Of a stretch of 52,092 nt of DNA, positions 3,813 to 15,067 are shown piece after piece. The translations under genes were made by a program, and so were the position numbers. Position 1 is the stretch's first letter; each line of letters starts with the position of its first letter. Location of the stretch: the IMG/VR virus record IMGVR_UViG_3300047380_001099, positions 1 to 52,092 of that record. One strand, written 5' to 3'. Below the pieces are notes generated by a model. It did no database searches. It was not told where the DNA came from and saw nothing but the letters and a program-made list of their open reading frames with translations. Source of the stretch: a virus.

Positions 3813-3837
3813 GATCTGAAACTCTACTTCCTAAATT

Positions 3838-3863
3838 GGCCAGTCGAAAGACTGGCCTTTTTT
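3838..3863 (+). terminator. Intrinsic terminator after the DUF932-like gene
   Basis: GGCCAGTC (3838-3845), GAAA tetraloop, GACTGGCC (3850-3857), then six T. A perfect 8-bp stem with a GNRA loop. Confidence 0.93.
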
Positions 3864-3919
3864 ATTGGTTTAAATCTAAACAAACTAGCAATTACACATA
3901 TAACACTAAAGTAAATCAC

Positions 3920-4237
3920 ATGAATATATTAAACGAAGCTGACAAGATTATTAATCATAGATCAGAAGAGAAAGAACGCATGTATGGCCCTTTTGAAGAA
4001 GGTATGCGTCGAGCTGCAATGGTTTGCTCAGGTATGACTGGCAAAGAATTTACCGGAGCTGACATGTATGCTGCGTTAGTCGCACTTAAATTAAGTAGAC
4101 ATTCTTATAATTATAAAGAAGATAACCTTCTTGATGCTGTTGCATATATTGGCGGCCTAGATAACTATATTAAAAAATATGGGTATGGCGAAACTGAAAA
4201 ACCAATCAATACAACCGACGCAGATGCAGGAATTTAA
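3920..4237 (+). CDS. DUF6378-like phage protein
   Basis: The start is set at ATG 3920 (leader AAAGTAAATCAC); the longer in-frame opening from 3836 would begin inside the terminator hairpin. The 105-residue product reads ILNEADKIINHRSEEKERMY, then GMTGKEFTGADMYAALVALK and EDNLLDAVAYIGGL. This matches my memory of the small all-helical DUF6378 family that is common in phages and has no assigned function. The last 14 bases overlap the start of the next gene, so it probably begins the operon running to about 8 kb. Confidence 0.6.
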   Translation: MNILNEADKIINHRSEEKERMYGPFEEGMRRAAMVCSGMTGKEFTGADMYAALVALKLSRHSYNYKEDNLLDAVAYIGGLDNYIKKYGYGETEKPINTTDADAGI

Positions 4238-5294
4238 GTACTTCACAGAATTAGAACCACACACTGATATTAAGATTGGAATTGCAATTTTAGTTGGTAA
4301 GTTTTCAGATAAGTTAAGTTCGCATAAAAGTGCTTGGCCTTTTATGCTTGCAAATCAATTAAGAACTGCTGGATATAAAGATGTGACAGTAATTACTAGC
4401 GTTAGTGAAGACTGGACTAAATATGACAGAATCATATTAGATCATGGTATGGAATTTAAAGGCACCTTTAATATTTTTGGAGGTGCAAATGATGATTTAT
4501 ACCATCAACTAAATAGATTATTTTGTGGAGTAAGAATGTACAGTATGCACCACGATATGCCAGATATTGGTGAGCTTATAACTAAAAGACTTAAGACCGG
4601 ATCTGATCTATTTAAAACTCTAGAAGATAAAATAGAAATGGCTACTAAAATTTGTAGTGATTTTATTCATAGAGTAGATCATATTGAAAAAACAGATAAA
4701 CTCTGTTTTGGTGATAGTCATTCTTTTAGTATGTATACTCCTGGGTATATGGTAAATCGTAATGATGGTTTAACTTTATTCGGGACCCTAAAACGTGGAC
4801 TCGCAGAGTATGTTTACCCATGGACCACTGATCTTAGGATCTACCTTGGTAATATCGACATAAGACATCATTTAATGCGACAGTCAGATCCCAGTGCGGC
4901 CCTAACTAAGATGATGGCTCAGTATGAGCAAGCGCTTATTGATTCAGGTATAAAAACTATAGAAGTTATACAAGCATTGCCTATTGAGAATGAATCTCGC
5001 AAGCTACCAAAGACTGGTTATTATAAAGGAACACCATTTGCTGGCTCTTGGCAAGAGAGAACTAATCTGGTAAATCTTATGAATGAGATGATAGTTTCAA
5101 TGTGTGATCGTAATGGTTGGTCTACATGGCAACATTCAGATGCATATAAAAATGCACTAGGCGAATTAAGTTTTGATGTTATGGAAAAACCTAAATCAGT
5201 ACACTTGGCTAGAGAATTCTATAGATGGGATTTAATTAACAATGAACCTAATAAAAAATTAGAAGTCGCAACTATTCAAACAGCGCTATTTTAA
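4224..5294 (+). CDS. Putative SGNH/GDSL-like hydrolase
   Basis: The frame is open from ATG 4179, but ATG 4224 gives only a 14-base overlap with the previous gene, so it is preferred (356 aa). The N-terminal about 130 residues look Rossmann-like (IKIGIAILVGKFSD... YDRIILDHG). The C-terminal part has KLCFGDSHSFSMY, resembling block I (GDS) of SGNH hydrolases, then YLGNIDIRHH in the place of the block III Gly-Asn-Asp, and SVHLAREFY resembling the His block. The family removes acyl or acetyl groups; the substrate is unknown. It lies directly upstream of a possible base-modification gene pair. The C-terminus ends TALF. Confidence 0.5.
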   Translation: MQEFKYFTELEPHTDIKIGIAILVGKFSDKLSSHKSAWPFMLANQLRTAGYKDVTVITSVSEDWTKYDRIILDHGMEFKGTFNIFGGANDDLYHQLNRLFCGVRMYSMHHDMPDIGELITKRLKTGSDLFKTLEDKIEMATKICSDFIHRVDHIEKTDKLCFGDSHSFSMYTPGYMVNRNDGLTLFGTLKRGLAEYVYPWTTDLRIYLGNIDIRHHLMRQSDPSAALTKMMAQYEQALIDSGIKTIEVIQALPIENESRKLPKTGYYKGTPFAGSWQERTNLVNLMNEMIVSMCDRNGWSTWQHSDAYKNALGELSFDVMEKPKSVHLAREFYRWDLINNEPNKKLEVATIQTALF

Positions 5295-5296
5295 AT

Positions 5297-5449
5297 ATGA
5301 AAGCAATAGACTACAGAATTAGAATTACACCACACAATGCACCAGATGCAAGCTATGTTTTAGAGATAGCAACAGCAGATCTTAATTGGTCTATGGATCA
5401 GTATCAGAGAAATAGAGATGCATTAACATGGGAATTAATTAAAGATTAA
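5297..5449 (+). CDS. Small hypothetical protein (50 aa)
   Basis: ATG 5297 lies two bases after the preceding stop. The frame runs 50 codons and its TAA shares the last A with the ATG of the next gene (5449), typical translational coupling in this operon. The product begins MKAIDYRIRITPHNAPDASY and ends DALTWELIKD, mixed in character with no membrane segment or known motif. Its precise fit between two genes supports it being real. No function can be suggested. Confidence 0.6.
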   Translation: MKAIDYRIRITPHNAPDASYVLEIATADLNWSMDQYQRNRDALTWELIKD

Positions 5450-6666
5450 TGCAGATAACAACAACAAAATATTACGATGAGTTTTTAAGGTATTTTGCTC
5501 TTGCTAAAAAGCAACAAGAGCTTTCAAACCTTGGTATGACTCCACATGATGAGAGTGGCATGCAAGATCCTCTTATGGAACAGATTCAATTATATGATGT
5601 TGTCGAGCGCAAGTATGCAGGTTTTAGTCAGATCATAAATGATTGTTTTTATGGTTGGGCCCCAGAACATCCTTATTGGAAACACATGCAAGCTGGTAAA
5701 ATTTACCCCCAAAGAGAAGAGGTTGCAAAGAATTGGACTGGAAGGCAAGAAGTTTTTGGATTAGAAGAATGGCTCTATATTTTTATTCTCCATAGAGTTT
5801 GTGGCTCTGCAATTAATTATGCAACTAAACCATCCGGATATCATAACACAATCTTATTTGATTTATATGATTGTGACACTATTGAAGATATGTGTGAAAA
5901 GGTGAAACACCATCCAACTTCTTTTTATACTTCAGTTGGCTATCAGTTTCCAGCATTTCCTAAGCCACCAAAACCCTCCGGGAATGAGGATTTATTTGTA
6001 GGAATGGATAACTTTACAGAACCAGAATATGTTTATAAAAAAGGTGGCGATTATTTCTTATGTGAGTTTGCACCGAGAATGGCAAGAGATATGGCAAACT
6101 TTTTAAGAGAAGGTGGTAAGAAGGATTTAAGAGAGCTTGGCCAGTGGATGTTTGATTGGAATGCTGCAAATGGATTAAGAGCTTATAGATTCCAGTATGC
6201 TGCAGTTATTGCAGATGTATGTGATTGGTACCCAGAATTTATGAATAGAGAATCAATGTTCTATTATGGTACTAATGCAGTAGAATGTATTGGTTATCTT
6301 GCAGATCCTGTAGAAAAGAAAGGTAAGAAATCTGAAGAGTTCTTGGATGCAGTTATGACTAAGATCTATGAAGATACTGGTAGTCTACCTTATAATGCTG
6401 AGGATGTAGCCTGTGACTTTATTAGATGGATTGAAAACTATCTAAGGCCAGGTGCTGATTATGCACATATTAACATGGATACTTTATGGAACTCATCTAC
6501 AATTAAAGACCATCCATCAGGAAGACAAAGGGCTATGTTAGACCTTGGTCTATTAGAAACATTTAATGGTATGACTTCATTTCCATCTGACCTTAAGGTT
6601 TTAGATGCGGCTGGAATTAAACCAGAAGAATATAAACAAAAAGTAAAAGAATTTTATGGCGCATAA
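5449..6666 (+). CDS. Putative alpha-glutamyl/putrescinyl thymine pyrophosphorylase-like (thymidine hypermodification) protein
   Basis: 405 residues, soluble, aromatic-rich and all-helical. Two regions recall the HhH-glycosylase-like helical family that in some phages phosphorylates 5-hydroxymethyl-dU in DNA or transfers amines to it (HMUDK/ADDT/aGPT-PPlase). One is FQYAAVIADVCDWYPEF followed by FYYGTNAVECIGYL, resembling the helix-GPGA-helix core. The other is LPYNAEDVACDFIRWIENY, resembling the DVEHxLCEFxKY helix. The next gene is a PLP enzyme, the same pairing described for complex thymine modification. No thymidylate-synthase homologue is in the window. The match is remote and by eye; it could be a different phage-specific helical family. 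Confidence 0.4.
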   Translation: MQITTTKYYDEFLRYFALAKKQQELSNLGMTPHDESGMQDPLMEQIQLYDVVERKYAGFSQIINDCFYGWAPEHPYWKHMQAGKIYPQREEVAKNWTGRQEVFGLEEWLYIFILHRVCGSAINYATKPSGYHNTILFDLYDCDTIEDMCEKVKHHPTSFYTSVGYQFPAFPKPPKPSGNEDLFVGMDNFTEPEYVYKKGGDYFLCEFAPRMARDMANFLREGGKKDLRELGQWMFDWNAANGLRAYRFQYAAVIADVCDWYPEFMNRESMFYYGTNAVECIGYLADPVEKKGKKSEEFLDAVMTKIYEDTGSLPYNAEDVACDFIRWIENYLRPGADYAHINMDTLWNSSTIKDHPSGRQRAMLDLGLLETFNGMTSFPSDLKVLDAAGIKPEEYKQKVKEFYGA

Positions 6667-7552
6667 TAACCACACAAAAAGTTTAATGAACCAGGATCTA
6701 AATCTAATGATGCCAAATAGACAGGCATGGTTAGATTTAGCAGGTGATTGGGAAGATCCTTTTGATTCACCACAACTAATAGACCACGATGGCTTTAAAG
6801 TTGTTAGGGAAGATATGATGGGCTTTGGATCTAAATGTAGGTTTGGAGATATTTTAGTTCAGAAAGCACCGACAGATACTTTGGTATATGTACAACCAAG
6901 ATATGGTTTCGCTGGTATTTCACTTGGATACCTAGCAAAAAAATATAATAAAAAATTAGTTCTATTTTGCCCAAGTCAAAAAGAGATTTCAGATCATCAG
7001 GCTATTTGTGCTGAACGAGGTGCTGAACTTAAATTTAAAAGAATTGCTGCAATGCCAGTATTAAATGCACATGCTAAAAAATGGGCCCAAGAAAATAATG
7101 CAACATTTATTCCACTTGGACTTCGTCATGAGCTTGTTACAGCAGCTGCTGTCAAGGTTGCATACGATCTTGCAGAGAAACATGGATATCCGGAAGAAGT
7201 ATGGTCAGCAATATCTACTGGCGTTCTATCTAGATCTTTACAAATAGCCTGGCCAGATGCTAATTTTAATGCAGTTGCAGTCTCTAGAAATATTAAAACT
7301 GGAGAGAGAGGTAGGGCAAAACTATGGTCTCATCCAAAGGCATTTACTCAAAACGTACACCCAGATAATATACCACCATTTCCATCAGCTCTTAATTATG
7401 ATGCTAAGGCATGGGAATTTATGGCTAAACATGGAAGTCCAGGTTCTTGGTTCTGGAATGTGGGCGGTGACCCTAAACCAGAATTATTAGATACAAAAAT
7501 AAATATGGACTCGGAAAGAGAGTGGGGCGAGATTAAAACAATGGATATGTAA
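6656..7552 (+). CDS. PLP-dependent enzyme of the cysteine synthase / ACC deaminase fold
   Basis: 298 residues. FKVVREDMMGFGSKCRFGDI supplies a likely PLP lysine (K60) in the ACC-deaminase-like Gly-x-Lys-x-Arg context. YVQPRYGFAGISLGYLAKKY is the substrate/cofactor loop plus helix, and WSAISTGVLSRSLQIAWP is the phosphate-binding Ser-Thr-Gly loop. The protein is a little shorter than free-standing fold-type II enzymes. It overlaps the upstream gene by 11 bases and the next by one. PLP enzymes of this fold sit beside thymine-hypermodification enzymes in other phages, where they act on an amino acid attached to the base. That role here is inferred; the fold call is firmer. Confidence 0.6.
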   Translation: MAHNNHTKSLMNQDLNLMMPNRQAWLDLAGDWEDPFDSPQLIDHDGFKVVREDMMGFGSKCRFGDILVQKAPTDTLVYVQPRYGFAGISLGYLAKKYNKKLVLFCPSQKEISDHQAICAERGAELKFKRIAAMPVLNAHAKKWAQENNATFIPLGLRHELVTAAAVKVAYDLAEKHGYPEEVWSAISTGVLSRSLQIAWPDANFNAVAVSRNIKTGERGRAKLWSHPKAFTQNVHPDNIPPFPSALNYDAKAWEFMAKHGSPGSWFWNVGGDPKPELLDTKINMDSEREWGEIKTMDM

Positions 7553-8046
7553 TGCGGTACATAAAAAGAAAATACAGACAGATAAAAAGAATATTTGAAT
7601 TCTTTCCATTAATATGGCATGGTGCAGATTTTGATTATAGATATGCTATTGATCTATTCTCGTATCAACTTTTAAGAACTGCAGATTATCTTGAAAAAAA
7701 GAACAGACATACTACGTCTCTTTCTGATGCTAAAAGAATTAGAACTGTAGTTGAGTTGTTAGAAAAAGTTTATGAAGAAGATTATGCTATGGAATATATG
7801 GATATTATTAAAGAAAAATATGGCCCTTCTGATTTTAGATTTATAGAATCTAAAGAAACTGATGCAAATAGTAATCCATATTATGAAATGGTTGAAGAAT
7901 ATGAGCATAATTATACGGATTCTGAGCTATTAATAATATCGGAAGAAAAGAGTGCAGAGCAACTTAATTCTAGAATAAAACAAAAAAGAGCCCACAAACT
8001 GGCGTGGGATTTAATAGAACATAATATTCAAAAATGGTGGGACTAG
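7552..8046 (+). CDS. Conserved phage hypothetical protein (164 aa)
   Basis: Starts on the last base of the previous stop. It begins with a basic Arg/Lys/Tyr stretch followed by FFPLIWHGADFDYRYAIDLF and a long helix YQLLRTADYLEKKNRHTTSL. This pattern is common in phage hypothetical proteins that share a DFDYxYxxDLF core. The rest is charged and helical, ending HNIQKWWD. No enzymatic motif is visible. As the last gene of the 3.9-8.0 kb operon it may belong to the same process as its neighbours, but nothing in the sequence proves that. Confidence 0.6.
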   Translation: MRYIKRKYRQIKRIFEFFPLIWHGADFDYRYAIDLFSYQLLRTADYLEKKNRHTTSLSDAKRIRTVVELLEKVYEEDYAMEYMDIIKEKYGPSDFRFIESKETDANSNPYYEMVEEYEHNYTDSELLIISEEKSAEQLNSRIKQKRAHKLAWDLIEHNIQKWWD

Positions 8047-8049
8047 TAT

Positions 8050-8076
8050 TGAAACTAATGGAATACTATCTATAAA
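8050..8076 (+). promoter_or_regulatory. Putative middle promoter B (TGAAAC / TATAAA)
   Basis: TGAAAC (8050-8055), 15 bases, TATAAA (8071-8076), then 20 bases to the dUTPase ATG. It belongs to the four-member set described under 13059-13087; its spacing is two bases shorter than at the gp45 and gp44 sites. Confidence 0.4.
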
Positions 8077-8096
8077 ACAATTATAAAAAAAATCAC

Positions 8097-8564
8097 ATGG
8101 CGAACATAGACAACGAATGTAAAGACCTTGAAGTAAAAGACTTCTACGCAGAATCAACAACACACTTAGAAGACATTATGTCTCATCAAAAAAACATGCA
8201 AGAAAAAACCTATGGTTTTAACTTTGAAGAAATGTCATTGCGAGATGTAATGAATTTTTGGCACTGTAATACTCATGCTGTAATTGATGAAATTCACGAA
8301 ATGACAGATGCTCTTGGTGGAATTAAAGACGGAAGTGGAAATGCAGTATGGAAATACTGGAAGAAAGACTTCTCAACATTTGATAACAAGAAAGTTTCTG
8401 ATTTATCTGAAGATGATAAAAAAGAACTATATATGGAATGGGTAGATATTCTACACTTCTTTATTAATTATGCCGCGTCCATAGGCCTTGACGCAAAGAC
8501 CGCTTACAATTACTATTTTGCGAAAGCAGAAGAGAATGTTCAACGTCAAAAAAGAGGCTATTAA
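8097..8564 (+). CDS. Dimeric dUTPase-like (all-alpha NTP pyrophosphatase)
   Basis: 155 residues, helical. The acidic metal-binding pattern of the dUTPase_2/MazG-like fold is visible: HAVIDEIHEMTDALGG, a WKYWKKDF stretch, then YMEWVDILHFFINYAASIGL and a closing YFAKAEENVQRQKRGY helix. Such enzymes hydrolyse dUTP (and dUDP) to dUMP, limiting uracil in DNA and feeding thymidylate or modified-pyrimidine synthesis. The gene begins a unit after a putative middle promoter and shares one base with the polymerase N-terminal gene, so both are probably made together at replication time. Confidence 0.75.
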   Translation: MANIDNECKDLEVKDFYAESTTHLEDIMSHQKNMQEKTYGFNFEEMSLRDVMNFWHCNTHAVIDEIHEMTDALGGIKDGSGNAVWKYWKKDFSTFDNKKVSDLSEDDKKELYMEWVDILHFFINYAASIGLDAKTAYNYYFAKAEENVQRQKRGY

Positions 8565-9964
8565 TGTTATTAGATATAGAACAAACAGAACGCGAGCTTA
8601 TCGTGTCTTATTACAACAAAGAGGGTAAGGTTTCATTTAAAAGATACCCTGTAGACAAATTCCAAAACTGGACTATTGCTAAAGATAGTGACAAGTGGCG
8701 AGATCAAAACTTTAAAAACTGGGATGGCCGTTCTATAAAACGTAGCATTTCTAAATCATTTAATAAGTTTAGTCTACTTTATTTCATGGATAGCCTTCCG
8801 GAAAAAGATAAAGAAGAGATCTATGAGTTTAATATGCCACGTACTTATTTTGTGGATATTGAAACAGAAATTGTAGATGGTTTTCCAAAGCCAGAAGAAG
8901 CTAAATCTAGAATCCTATCATTCTCTATTATCACGCCAGAACGTAAAGCTATTGTTCTCGGATTAAACGATATGTCTCCAGCTGAAATTAAAAAGATAGA
9001 AGACGATACAAATGCACACTTTAAAGATTATGACCAAGACTGGGAATTCTCTTATTATAAGTTTAAGGATGAGTATAATATGCTATATACATTCTTGCAT
9101 AAGTTTTTACCTAAATTCCCTATGATGACCGGCTGGAATTTTATCAATTATGATTGGCAATATATAGTTAATAGATGTAAACGTCTTCAGATTGATTTAA
9201 CTGAAGTAGCAATTACTGGTTCTTTAGATAAAAAAGATGGTCGACCTTTACACATGGGTATTTTAGATTACATGCAACTTTATGATAAGTACGATAGATC
9301 AGTTGCTGTTAAAGAATCTAATTCACTTGATTTTGTTTCAGGCGCAGTACTTGATGTTGCTAAAATTAAATACACAGGTGGACTACAAGAACTTTATGAA
9401 AATAACTTTGTAAAATATATCTATTATAACGTAGTCGATTCATGTCTTGTATATTATATAGATGAAAAGCTAAGATCAATGGAAGTTCTATTGACTTTAG
9501 CAACAATTACAAGAATGCCTTTATATAAAGCAGCCTCTCCGGTTGCTGTTACAGAATCTTTAATCGCTAGAAAACTAGCTACTGATAATAAAAAAATTGC
9601 AGTAGAATGGGATCGCGATACTAAAAAAGATACTAAATATGAGGGTGCTTTTGTTAAACAACCGATTGTTGGATATTACTCTGGGGTTAGCGCATTTGAC
9701 TTTGCTTCTCTATATCCATCGGTTATGAGGCAGTTTAATATCTCTCCTGATTCTTTTATAGAAATGATTCCAGAAATGGAAGTTAAACAAAAAAGAAAAG
9801 AAAAAGATATTATTGTTTGTGAAAACGGAGCTGTCTACAAAAAAGAAGATTCAATGCTAAAATTGATCCTAAGCGATCTATATGGACAACGTAAGGAATA
9901 TAAGAAGACTTCTTATACTTATTATGAAAAAGCACACGAATTGAAAAAAAAATTTAAAGTATAA
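8564..9964 (+). CDS. gp43A: DNA polymerase (family B, gp43), N-terminal half: exonuclease plus motif A
   Basis: 466 residues matching the first half of T4 gp43. Proofreading motifs are intact: Exo I FVDIETE (D98, E100), Exo II MTGWNFINYDWQYIV (D197), Exo III YYNVVDSCLVYYID (D292). Palm motif A is FDFASLYPSVMRQFN (D379), one of the two metal-binding aspartates. The protein stops in the fingers helix after LYGQRKEYKKTSYTYYEKAH; motifs B and C are absent here but present in 13859-15067. The halves sum to 868 residues against about 898 in T4, so the enzyme looks complete but split. It must assemble with gp43B to polymerise. Overlaps the dUTPase stop by one base. Confidence 0.93.
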   Translation: MLLDIEQTERELIVSYYNKEGKVSFKRYPVDKFQNWTIAKDSDKWRDQNFKNWDGRSIKRSISKSFNKFSLLYFMDSLPEKDKEEIYEFNMPRTYFVDIETEIVDGFPKPEEAKSRILSFSIITPERKAIVLGLNDMSPAEIKKIEDDTNAHFKDYDQDWEFSYYKFKDEYNMLYTFLHKFLPKFPMMTGWNFINYDWQYIVNRCKRLQIDLTEVAITGSLDKKDGRPLHMGILDYMQLYDKYDRSVAVKESNSLDFVSGAVLDVAKIKYTGGLQELYENNFVKYIYYNVVDSCLVYYIDEKLRSMEVLLTLATITRMPLYKAASPVAVTESLIARKLATDNKKIAVEWDRDTKKDTKYEGAFVKQPIVGYYSGVSAFDFASLYPSVMRQFNISPDSFIEMIPEMEVKQKRKEKDIIVCENGAVYKKEDSMLKLILSDLYGQRKEYKKTSYTYYEKAHELKKKFKV

Positions 9965-13858: not shown

Positions 13859-15067
13859 ATGGATATCAAAGAATTAGAAAATAAACCAATAGATCAAATT
13901 TCACAAACTGAAGCTGAGCTGCTCATAAAACATTATGAGCAGCTTTCGGCTAAGTATACCGCATACGAACAGGCTGTTAAATTAACACTTAACTCTATTT
14001 ACGGTGCATTTGGAAATAAATGGTTTCACTTTTTTGATATTAATATTGCAGAGTCTATTACTAAACAGAGTAAAAATGCTATTCTTTATTCAGAAGACAT
14101 ATTAAACAAATATGTAAATGAGTTCTGGCATAAAGATACAAAAGTACATGAGCATTTTGGATTTAAAGTTAAAGGTAAGATTGAAAAGCCTGCAGTAATT
14201 TACATTGATACAGATTCTTGTTATATTCAATTTCAAGATCTATATGAATCTATTGTATGGCCGGATGAAGATAAAAAAGTTGCAATTGATGTTTTTATAT
14301 TAGAGCTTTATGCATTTAGGCTTAAAGATTATATTACTAAGTGCATGGAAAAATATGCAGACGCTAGAAATACTGACAATTACTTAATGTTTGAGTTAGA
14401 ATCATTAGCTTATAATGGAATCTGGTTAGCAAAGAAAAAGTATATTCAGAATCTTGCATGGGATGATAAATTAGAAGTGACCGATAGACACAAGCCTCTT
14501 AAGAAAGTTAAGACTATCGGCTTTGATACAATCCAATCTTCAACTCCTAAATTTGTTAGAGAAAAGCTTGTTGAAGCATTAAAGATTATTTTTAAGCGTG
14601 GAAGTACTCCGACTGCTGAAGATTTGCAAACTCTAGTTAATTTTATGAAAGAGACTAAGAAGGAGTTTCAAATGGCTAATATAGACGATATTAGTTTTAA
14701 TCGTAGAACTAATAATATTGAAAAGTATATTGTAGATGATCAGATTGAATTACAAGTAGGTCTAAAATGTCCAGCAAATGTAAAAGCAGCAGGTTACTAT
14801 AATTACTTATTAAATACTAATGCAAAATATAAAACAAAGTATAAAGTAATCGGTAATGGTGAAAAGCTTAAGATTTATAATTGTAAAAGTCCAATTAGTG
14901 AGGTTTACGCTTATATGCCTGGAGACCACCCTTATGAATTTGCACCGCAAGTTGACTATGATACTCAATTTGAAAAGTCAATGATAGATCCTCTTAATAG
15001 AGTTCTTGTAGCATGCGGCTTACAAACACTAGATACAAACTTAATCTATGCTTCGGCACTATTTTAA
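13859..15067 (+). CDS. gp43B: DNA polymerase (family B, gp43), C-terminal half: motifs B and C, thumb
   Basis: 402 residues matching the second half of T4 gp43. Motif B is KLTLNSIYGAFGN (K41, Y48, G49), and motif C is VIYIDTDSCYI (D117, D119). Then come LAKKKYIQNLAW and IGFDTIQSSTPKFV, equivalent to T4 KAKKRYALNV and METQQSSTPK, and a thumb. The C-terminus (NLIYASALF) sits where T4 gp43 carries its clamp-binding tail. About 40 residues before motif B complete the fingers helix begun in gp43A. ATG 13859 lies 3 bases after the gp45 stop, so clamp and catalytic half are co-expressed. No intein or intron sequence is visible at either break. Confidence 0.93.
   Translation: MDIKELENKPIDQISQTEAELLIKHYEQLSAKYTAYEQAVKLTLNSIYGAFGNKWFHFFDINIAESITKQSKNAILYSEDILNKYVNEFWHKDTKVHEHFGFKVKGKIEKPAVIYIDTDSCYIQFQDLYESIVWPDEDKKVAIDVFILELYAFRLKDYITKCMEKYADARNTDNYLMFELESLAYNGIWLAKKKYIQNLAWDDKLEVTDRHKPLKKVKTIGFDTIQSSTPKFVREKLVEALKIIFKRGSTPTAEDLQTLVNFMKETKKEFQMANIDDISFNRRTNNIEKYIVDDQIELQVGLKCPANVKAAGYYNYLLNTNAKYKTKYKVIGNGEKLKIYNCKSPISEVYAYMPGDHPYEFAPQVDYDTQFEKSMIDPLNRVLVACGLQTLDTNLIYASALF

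Follow-up and report, generated by a model that had tools for sequence, protein, structure and literature searches.

A gene cassette of SGNH, ADDT-like and PLP enzymes in a T4-like phage is a probable cytosine hypermodification locus

Which base of its DNA would a T4-like phage modify with a run of genes in which an SGNH-like hydrolase, a helical protein and a pyridoxal phosphate (PLP) enzyme are encoded side by side? The run is located at 4224-8564 of the IMG/VR virus record IMGVR_UViG_3300047380_001099, which was analysed over its entire length of 52,092 bases (the window) and is probably a fragment of a genome. The initial annotation, made from the sequence alone, had read it as a possible thymidine hypermodification locus. 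That the locus is a DNA-base hypermodification cassette is well supported, because the PLP enzyme is of the type found in phage M6, the helical protein resembles the amino acid:DNA transferase (ADDT) family in fold and the genes are tightly linked. The thymine part of the proposal is improbable: a pyrophosphatase of the T4 gp56 family, a domain resembling T4 beta-glucosyltransferase (BGT) and the gp42-type enzymes of relatives point to cytosine, which is probably the modified base. We give a probability of about 0.7 to a post-replicative hypermodification cassette acting on 5-hydroxymethylcytosine (hmC), in which hmC would be made in the T4 manner and then pass through SGNH, ADDT-like and PLP steps.

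The gene content of the window is T4-like, with the large terminase, portal, major head protein, tail sheath and UvsX, as well as a gp41-type helicase, a gp46-type SbcC subunit, the clamp loader and a family-B DNA polymerase. The open reading frames (ORFs) of the cassette are all on the + strand and abut or overlap. They encode a two-domain protein with a BGT-like N-terminal domain followed by an SGNH/GDSH domain (4224-5294, with an alternative in-frame ATG at 4179), a protein of 50 amino acids (5297-5449), the ADDT-like helical protein of 405 amino acids, hereafter ADDT-A, a candidate transferase or base-flipping subunit (5449-6666), the fold-type II PLP enzyme (6656-7552), a protein of 164 amino acids (7552-8046) and an all-alpha NTP pyrophosphatase of the T4 gp56 dCTPase/dUTPase type (8097-8564). 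The polymerase ORF starts at 8564, directly after them. All ORFs named in the overlapping run of the initial annotation were found on this strand, overlapping or nearly so, with the polymerase behind them as described there.

The PLP enzyme links the cassette to a known hypermodification system. The protein matched PALP (2.3e-4, under the Pfam cut-off) and phrog_7093 (4.3e-40), and the PLP-binding Lys60 was invariant (15/15), in agreement with the fold-type II assignment proposed earlier. When its family was compared by hhalign with the PLP protein adjoining ADDT in M6, the two aligned with a probability of 97.2 and an E value of 2.9e-11 over 221 columns. The M6 ORF, itself a PALP protein, overlaps and comes after a gene whose product matches ADDT at 1.4e-46; because it belongs to the same PLP family, the order of ADDT followed by PLP is common to the window and M6. 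The DNA of M6 was reported to contain 5-(2-aminoethyl)deoxyuridine (PMC6449724). A relative of this PLP domain was also observed in gp1 of Erythrobacter phage R6L (L082), embedded in a protein that further contains ParB-like parts and others resembling N6/N4-type DNA methyltransferases; the methyltransferase reading comes from the record annotation ('DNA modification methylase' only) and from Pfam and PHROG matches of the equivalents in Microcystis phages.

For the helical protein, the evidence came from fold and motif comparisons. Its predicted structure (predicted local distance difference test, pLDDT, 73) was searched with Foldseek against BFVD, and it matched a phage protein of 58% identity that bears the label 'Amino acid:DNA transferase domain-containing' (E 6.7e-33); a distant viral protein labelled as ADDT also matched (probability 1.00, E 0.017), and EndoIII and the HMUDK_hel protein of Delftia phage PhiW-14 ranked lower and were not significant. 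A C-terminal ExxxCx[FWY] motif was conserved in 42/42 ADDT-A, 27/28 ADDT, 22/25 HMUDK_hel and 21/26 ADDT-B sequences, the last being a second helical family of 327 amino acids that accompanies ADDT-A in some phages and is absent from the window. Direct hhalign comparisons of ADDT-A with ADDT, HMUDK_hel or ADDT-B singly were not significant. Against a merged profile of these three families ADDT-A aligned at E 0.0034, with the ExxxC motif at the equivalent place, which is about the level at which the ADDT and HMUDK_hel profiles find each other (E 0.0044). Using hmmscan, nothing usable was obtained for ADDT-A and its relatives from Pfam and PHROGs, and Pfam ADDT (PF18724) matched neither the window protein nor the other members of two alignments of relatives; PF18724 was also not found in the genomes of 16 large relatives, with M6 and PhiW-14 positive as controls. 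Neither a profile search nor a fold search of the PDB gave a credible match, and tblastn against 50,697 cultured phage records found no relative. ADDT-A is therefore probably a distant member of the ADDT/HMUDK_hel superfamily, judged from profiles and a predicted structure, and not a proven ADDT. The remote ADDT/HMUDK likeness that had been noticed at first held in fold and motif, including the ADDT-labelled matches from the structural comparison suggested as a check, and failed in the Pfam and single-profile searches.

Comparisons with relatives further showed that these genes travel together. The scans of viral contigs for relatives of the helical protein passed at least 477-485 related stretches; many of these loci are overlapping or similar contigs, and the counts given here are at best distinct ADDT-A sequences. 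Of 66 distinct loci of relatives that extend for 4 kb or more on both sides, 65 have the SGNH gene and 64 the PLP gene. Conversely, wherever the upstream DNA was long enough, the loci selected by PLP (63) and those selected by ADDT-B (57) all had the helical gene. The gene orders varied (SGNH-A-PLP-gp56, SGNH-A-B-PLP-gp56 and hydroxymethylase-deaminase-A-B-SGNH-PLP, among others), and the persistence of the linkage despite such rearrangement suggests that SGNH, ADDT-A and PLP act jointly. Six loci came from bacterial genome assemblies, in which the cassette genes were present wherever the contig was long enough; these are probably binned phage contigs.

The SGNH protein provides evidence on the substrate. 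Its AlphaFold2 model had a pLDDT of 86.4, the top Foldseek matches in the PDB were GDSL/SGNH esterases (probability 1.00), and the GDSH motif with the block-I Ser (163-166) and the block-V His327 were invariant in 42/42 non-redundant relatives, so that the SGNH-like hydrolase recognised initially was confirmed. The BGT-like domain spans approximately residues 16-127, in the numbering that begins with the ATG at 4224. One relative matched the Pfam model of T4 BGT weakly (E 0.0021), and hhalign of the 42 SGNH proteins against seven BGT sequences gave a probability of 95.7 and an E value of 9.6e-9 over 106 columns, with a score of 69, where 100 column-shuffled controls scored no higher than 25; the homology claim is based on this profile comparison and its shuffle control. 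The alignment covers BGT residues 1-116, that is, the N-terminal domain only, and the glucose-donor (UDP-glucose) domain of BGT is absent, with the SGNH domain in its place. The NxFGG motif was kept in nearly all of the 42 proteins. T4 BGT acts on hmC in DNA, and the BGT-like domain is therefore evidence from within the window for an hmC substrate. Relatives of the SGNH protein were also identified in 43 records of cultured phages, namely Aeromonas T4-like phages and a few others. In 44RR and AS4, the SGNH region is fused to a C-terminal domain matching HMUDK_hel (E 0.003-0.004, under the Pfam cut-off), and in Aes012 the SGNH gene is unfused and located near UDP-galactopyranose mutase. The fusion protein of 44RR is ORF233c (L084:6004-8391), annotated just as 'hypothetical protein'.

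Nucleotide-metabolism genes point to the same base. The protein at 8097-8564 is 31% identical to T4 gp56 over 108 amino acids (E 3e-20) and matched 1402 phage records, mostly T4-like and many annotated as dCTP pyrophosphatase. It had been taken for a dUTPase; this generic reading gave way to that of a dCTPase/dUTPase of the T4 gp56 family. In 59 relatives' loci, a dCMP hydroxymethylase of the T4 gp42 type is encoded on the strand of ADDT-A, at a distance of 40-1575 bp upstream of it. Wherever a hydroxymethylase was matched (66 loci), the residue at the specificity position (the position of ThyA Asn177) is Asp; the dUMP enzymes of SPO1, M6 and PhiW-14 have Asn there, and replacing this Asn by Asp switches the substrate from dUMP to dCMP (PMC8670742). 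The cassette hydroxymethylases whose nearest query was T4 gp42 were 50-66% identical to it. In a tree, the cassette-adjacent enzymes surround the gp42 of T4 and 44RR, with the dUMP enzymes of SPO1, M6 and PhiW-14 apart, although some branches are long. Several large relatives, including G002, G006, G008, G011, G016 and G017, carry an Asp-type hydroxymethylase elsewhere in the genome; G006 and G011 share the gene order of the window, and G002 and G017 carry ADDT-B. The gp42-type enzyme of the relatives and the gp56 of the window thus support that this phage lineage makes hmC as T4 does.

If so, a pathway can be proposed in which the BGT-like domain would dock on hmC in DNA, and the Ser-His SGNH domain would modify or activate the 5-hydroxymethyl group, probably by an acyl transfer replacing the P-loop HMUDK kinase. 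The ADDT-like protein, together with its ADDT-B companion in some phages, would place an amino acid on the hydroxymethyl carbon for the PLP enzyme to remodel, in line with the proposal made for M6. The resulting amino-acid- or amine-derived 5-methylcytosine would shield the DNA from restriction. The chemistry and the order of the steps are our inference. The weakest step of the mechanism is SGNH in place of the kinase, the basis for which is the absence of HMUDK and the 44RR fusion.

Several observations weigh against this hmC pathway. The substrate, order and product are derived from sequences. The window, a fragment, lacks a hydroxymethylase, so that the base is deduced from relatives, the BGT-like domain and gp56; nor was one seen in roughly half of the contigs of large relatives, which may be fragments. 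The Asp aligned with the catalytic base of BGT, which we take to be Asp100, was kept in just 32 of the 42 SGNH proteins, and T4 BGT was not among the best 50 PDB Foldseek matches listed for the SGNH protein. In addition, gp56 alone is not proof of hmC, because Petrov et al. listed it also in T4-like phages without gene 42 (PMC2993671). The ADDT assignment is weak by sequence, given the lack of a profile hidden Markov model match and the failure of direct pairwise comparison.

The alternatives differ in the base, in the order of the steps or in the kind of substrate. In a thymidine pathway, 5-hydroxymethyldeoxyuridine (5hmdU) would enter the DNA and, once activated, would receive an amino acid through the ADDT-like protein and the PLP enzyme. 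Lee et al. reportedly characterised ADDT and PLP enzymes on 5hmdU in M6 and ViI. The strong match of the PLP family to M6 also fits such a pathway, which is outlined in PMC6449724. However, the dUMP hydroxymethylase and kinase whose presence had been suggested as a check were not detected: no dUMP hydroxymethylase was found in the window fragment or in any relative searched, where all divergent thymidylate synthase (TS)-like genes carry Asp and are of the dCMP type, and HMUDK_hel (PF18723) was not above threshold in the 16 large relatives (one match at E 0.012), with M6 and PhiW-14 positive as controls. Several relatives have a canonical Td or ThyX, so that thymidine itself is probably normal, and gp56 and the BGT-like domain indicate hmC. 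All these make modification of thymidine improbable.

A change in the order of the steps on hmC is easier to reconcile with these data. SGNH enzymes are mostly esterases or acyltransferases, and the SGNH gene is located before or after the ADDT and PLP genes depending on the clade; both would suit an SGNH enzyme that performs the last tailoring step by acylating or deacylating the finished adduct, with the ADDT-like protein using another activation on hmC. This order is possible but doubtful, since the SGNH-HMUDK_hel-like fusion of 44RR parallels the M6 architecture of a kinase with a helical domain, and the BGT-like domain fits direct action on hmC. The location of the cassette among nucleotide-metabolism genes, and the finding that the hmC carbamoyltransferase also acts on 5-hydroxymethyl-dCTP (PMC8670742), would be consistent with action on nucleotide pools or RNA instead of DNA. 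We consider this very unlikely in view of the ADDT-type fold, the BGT-like domain and the PLP relative embedded in the DNA methyltransferase-like protein of phage R6L.

Under hypermodification of hmC, the locus shares parts with several known systems. Like M6 and ViI (5hmdU, HMUDK, ADDT, PLP), it has an ADDT-type gene and, directly after and overlapping it, a gene from the same family of fold-type II PLP enzymes; unlike them, it is associated with a dCMP-type hydroxymethylase, an SGNH/BGT-like protein, gp56 and a very divergent ADDT-A, and no HMUDK kinase or radical SAM gene was seen in the cassette. The T4 hmC pathway (gp42, gp56, BGT) is matched by the gp42-type enzyme of the relatives, the gp56 of the window and the BGT-like N-terminal domain, whereas here SGNH replaces the glucose-donor domain, and ADDT-like and PLP enzymes are added. 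In the hmC carbamoyltransferase loci found by MetaGPA (eLife 2021, PMC8670742), a TS-like hydroxymethylase, a pyrophosphohydrolase and a dCMP deaminase, all companions also seen here, accompany the hmC transferase; that transferase is unrelated, and SGNH, ADDT-like and PLP proteins are encoded here. ORF233c of 44RR and its AS4 homologue have the BGT-like/SGNH region in T4-like phages, and 44RR and 25 have gene 42, but SGNH is fused to the HMUDK_hel-like domain and no PALP-type enzyme was found in these genomes. PhiW-14 (alpha-putrescinylthymine) is likewise T4-related, with an amine-hypermodified pyrimidine and ADDT/HMUDK_hel genes; it differs in its dUMP hydroxymethylase with Asn and its thymine scaffold. 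Given that PhiW-14, a phage listed as T4-related, produces putrescinylthymine (PMC2993671, PMC5977210), thymine hypermodification in a T4-like phage, put forward as new in the initial annotation, would not itself be new.

We tentatively suggest that uncultured T4-like phages of a large clade make 5-methylcytosines derived from amino acids, with the BGT-like/SGNH enzyme replacing the kinase and the ADDT-like and PLP enzymes finishing the base, and that the related SGNH-HMUDK_hel fusion has a comparable function in cultured Aeromonas phages. To our knowledge, complex amino-acid adducts have been characterised only on 5-hydroxymethyluracil, and the known additions to hmC are glucose, arabinose or a carbamoyl group. 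If true, an ADDT/PLP route acting on hmC would yield DNA bases of a new class and give phages a new means against restriction, one that is apparently common. The BGT-like/SGNH proteins, with their two domains, would add a new type to the enzymes acting on hmC. Petrov et al. (2010) reported that 44RR, 31 and 25 have gene 42 and no known glucosyltransferase, and left open another modification of hmC (PMC2993671), for which the cassette and its SGNH family are a concrete candidate. The occurrence of the SGNH fusion in cultured Aeromonas phages makes the hmC idea testable.

Some uncultured relatives have additional genes in or beside their cassettes. These included sugar genes, such as a GT2 glycosyltransferase with UDP-galactopyranose mutase (L226:7809-10089) and a galactosyltransferase-like gene (L132:3921-4790), which hint at further sugar decoration. 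A CitG-like gene (triphosphoribosyl-dephospho-CoA synthase family) is located between the SGNH and ADDT-A genes at L046:9191-9988, and a gene of the LOG or 'lysine decarboxylase' family (PF03641) directly precedes the PLP gene within the cassette at L006:11206-11877 and L055:12345-13016. A small gene resembling the uracil-DNA-glycosylase superfamily was observed between the dCMP deaminase and ADDT-A genes at L193:1978-2394, with a PF03167 match under the cut-off, and at L081:2589-3002, where the similarity was judged by eye. A tryptophan-halogenase family gene (PF04820, 1.5e-91) directly follows the polymerase gene of another relative (L077:5120-6598).

The remaining genes in and around the cassette differ in their conservation. 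The 50-amino-acid protein is a real conserved gene, with homologous ORFs of 49-57 amino acids occupying this position in L008, L063 and L046, and homologues also in L002, L003 and L006. The 164-amino-acid protein had been called a conserved hypothetical, but among the relatives listed just the two closest have it, and it is not clade-wide. Just upstream of the SGNH gene, a conserved DUF6378 protein (3836-4237, + strand; PF19905, 5.9e-10), possibly an accessory, keeps the same position in relatives with the gene order of the window. Downstream, the polymerase gene gp43 is split on the + strand into an N-terminal part (8564-9964; phrog_2062, 6.1e-79; DNA_pol_B_exo1, 5.5e-12) and a C-terminal part (13859-15067; phrog_1918, 3.8e-68). 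The two halves are kept apart by nrdB, nrdA and an ORF of 247 amino acids read as the sliding clamp, and the gene is split likewise in relatives.

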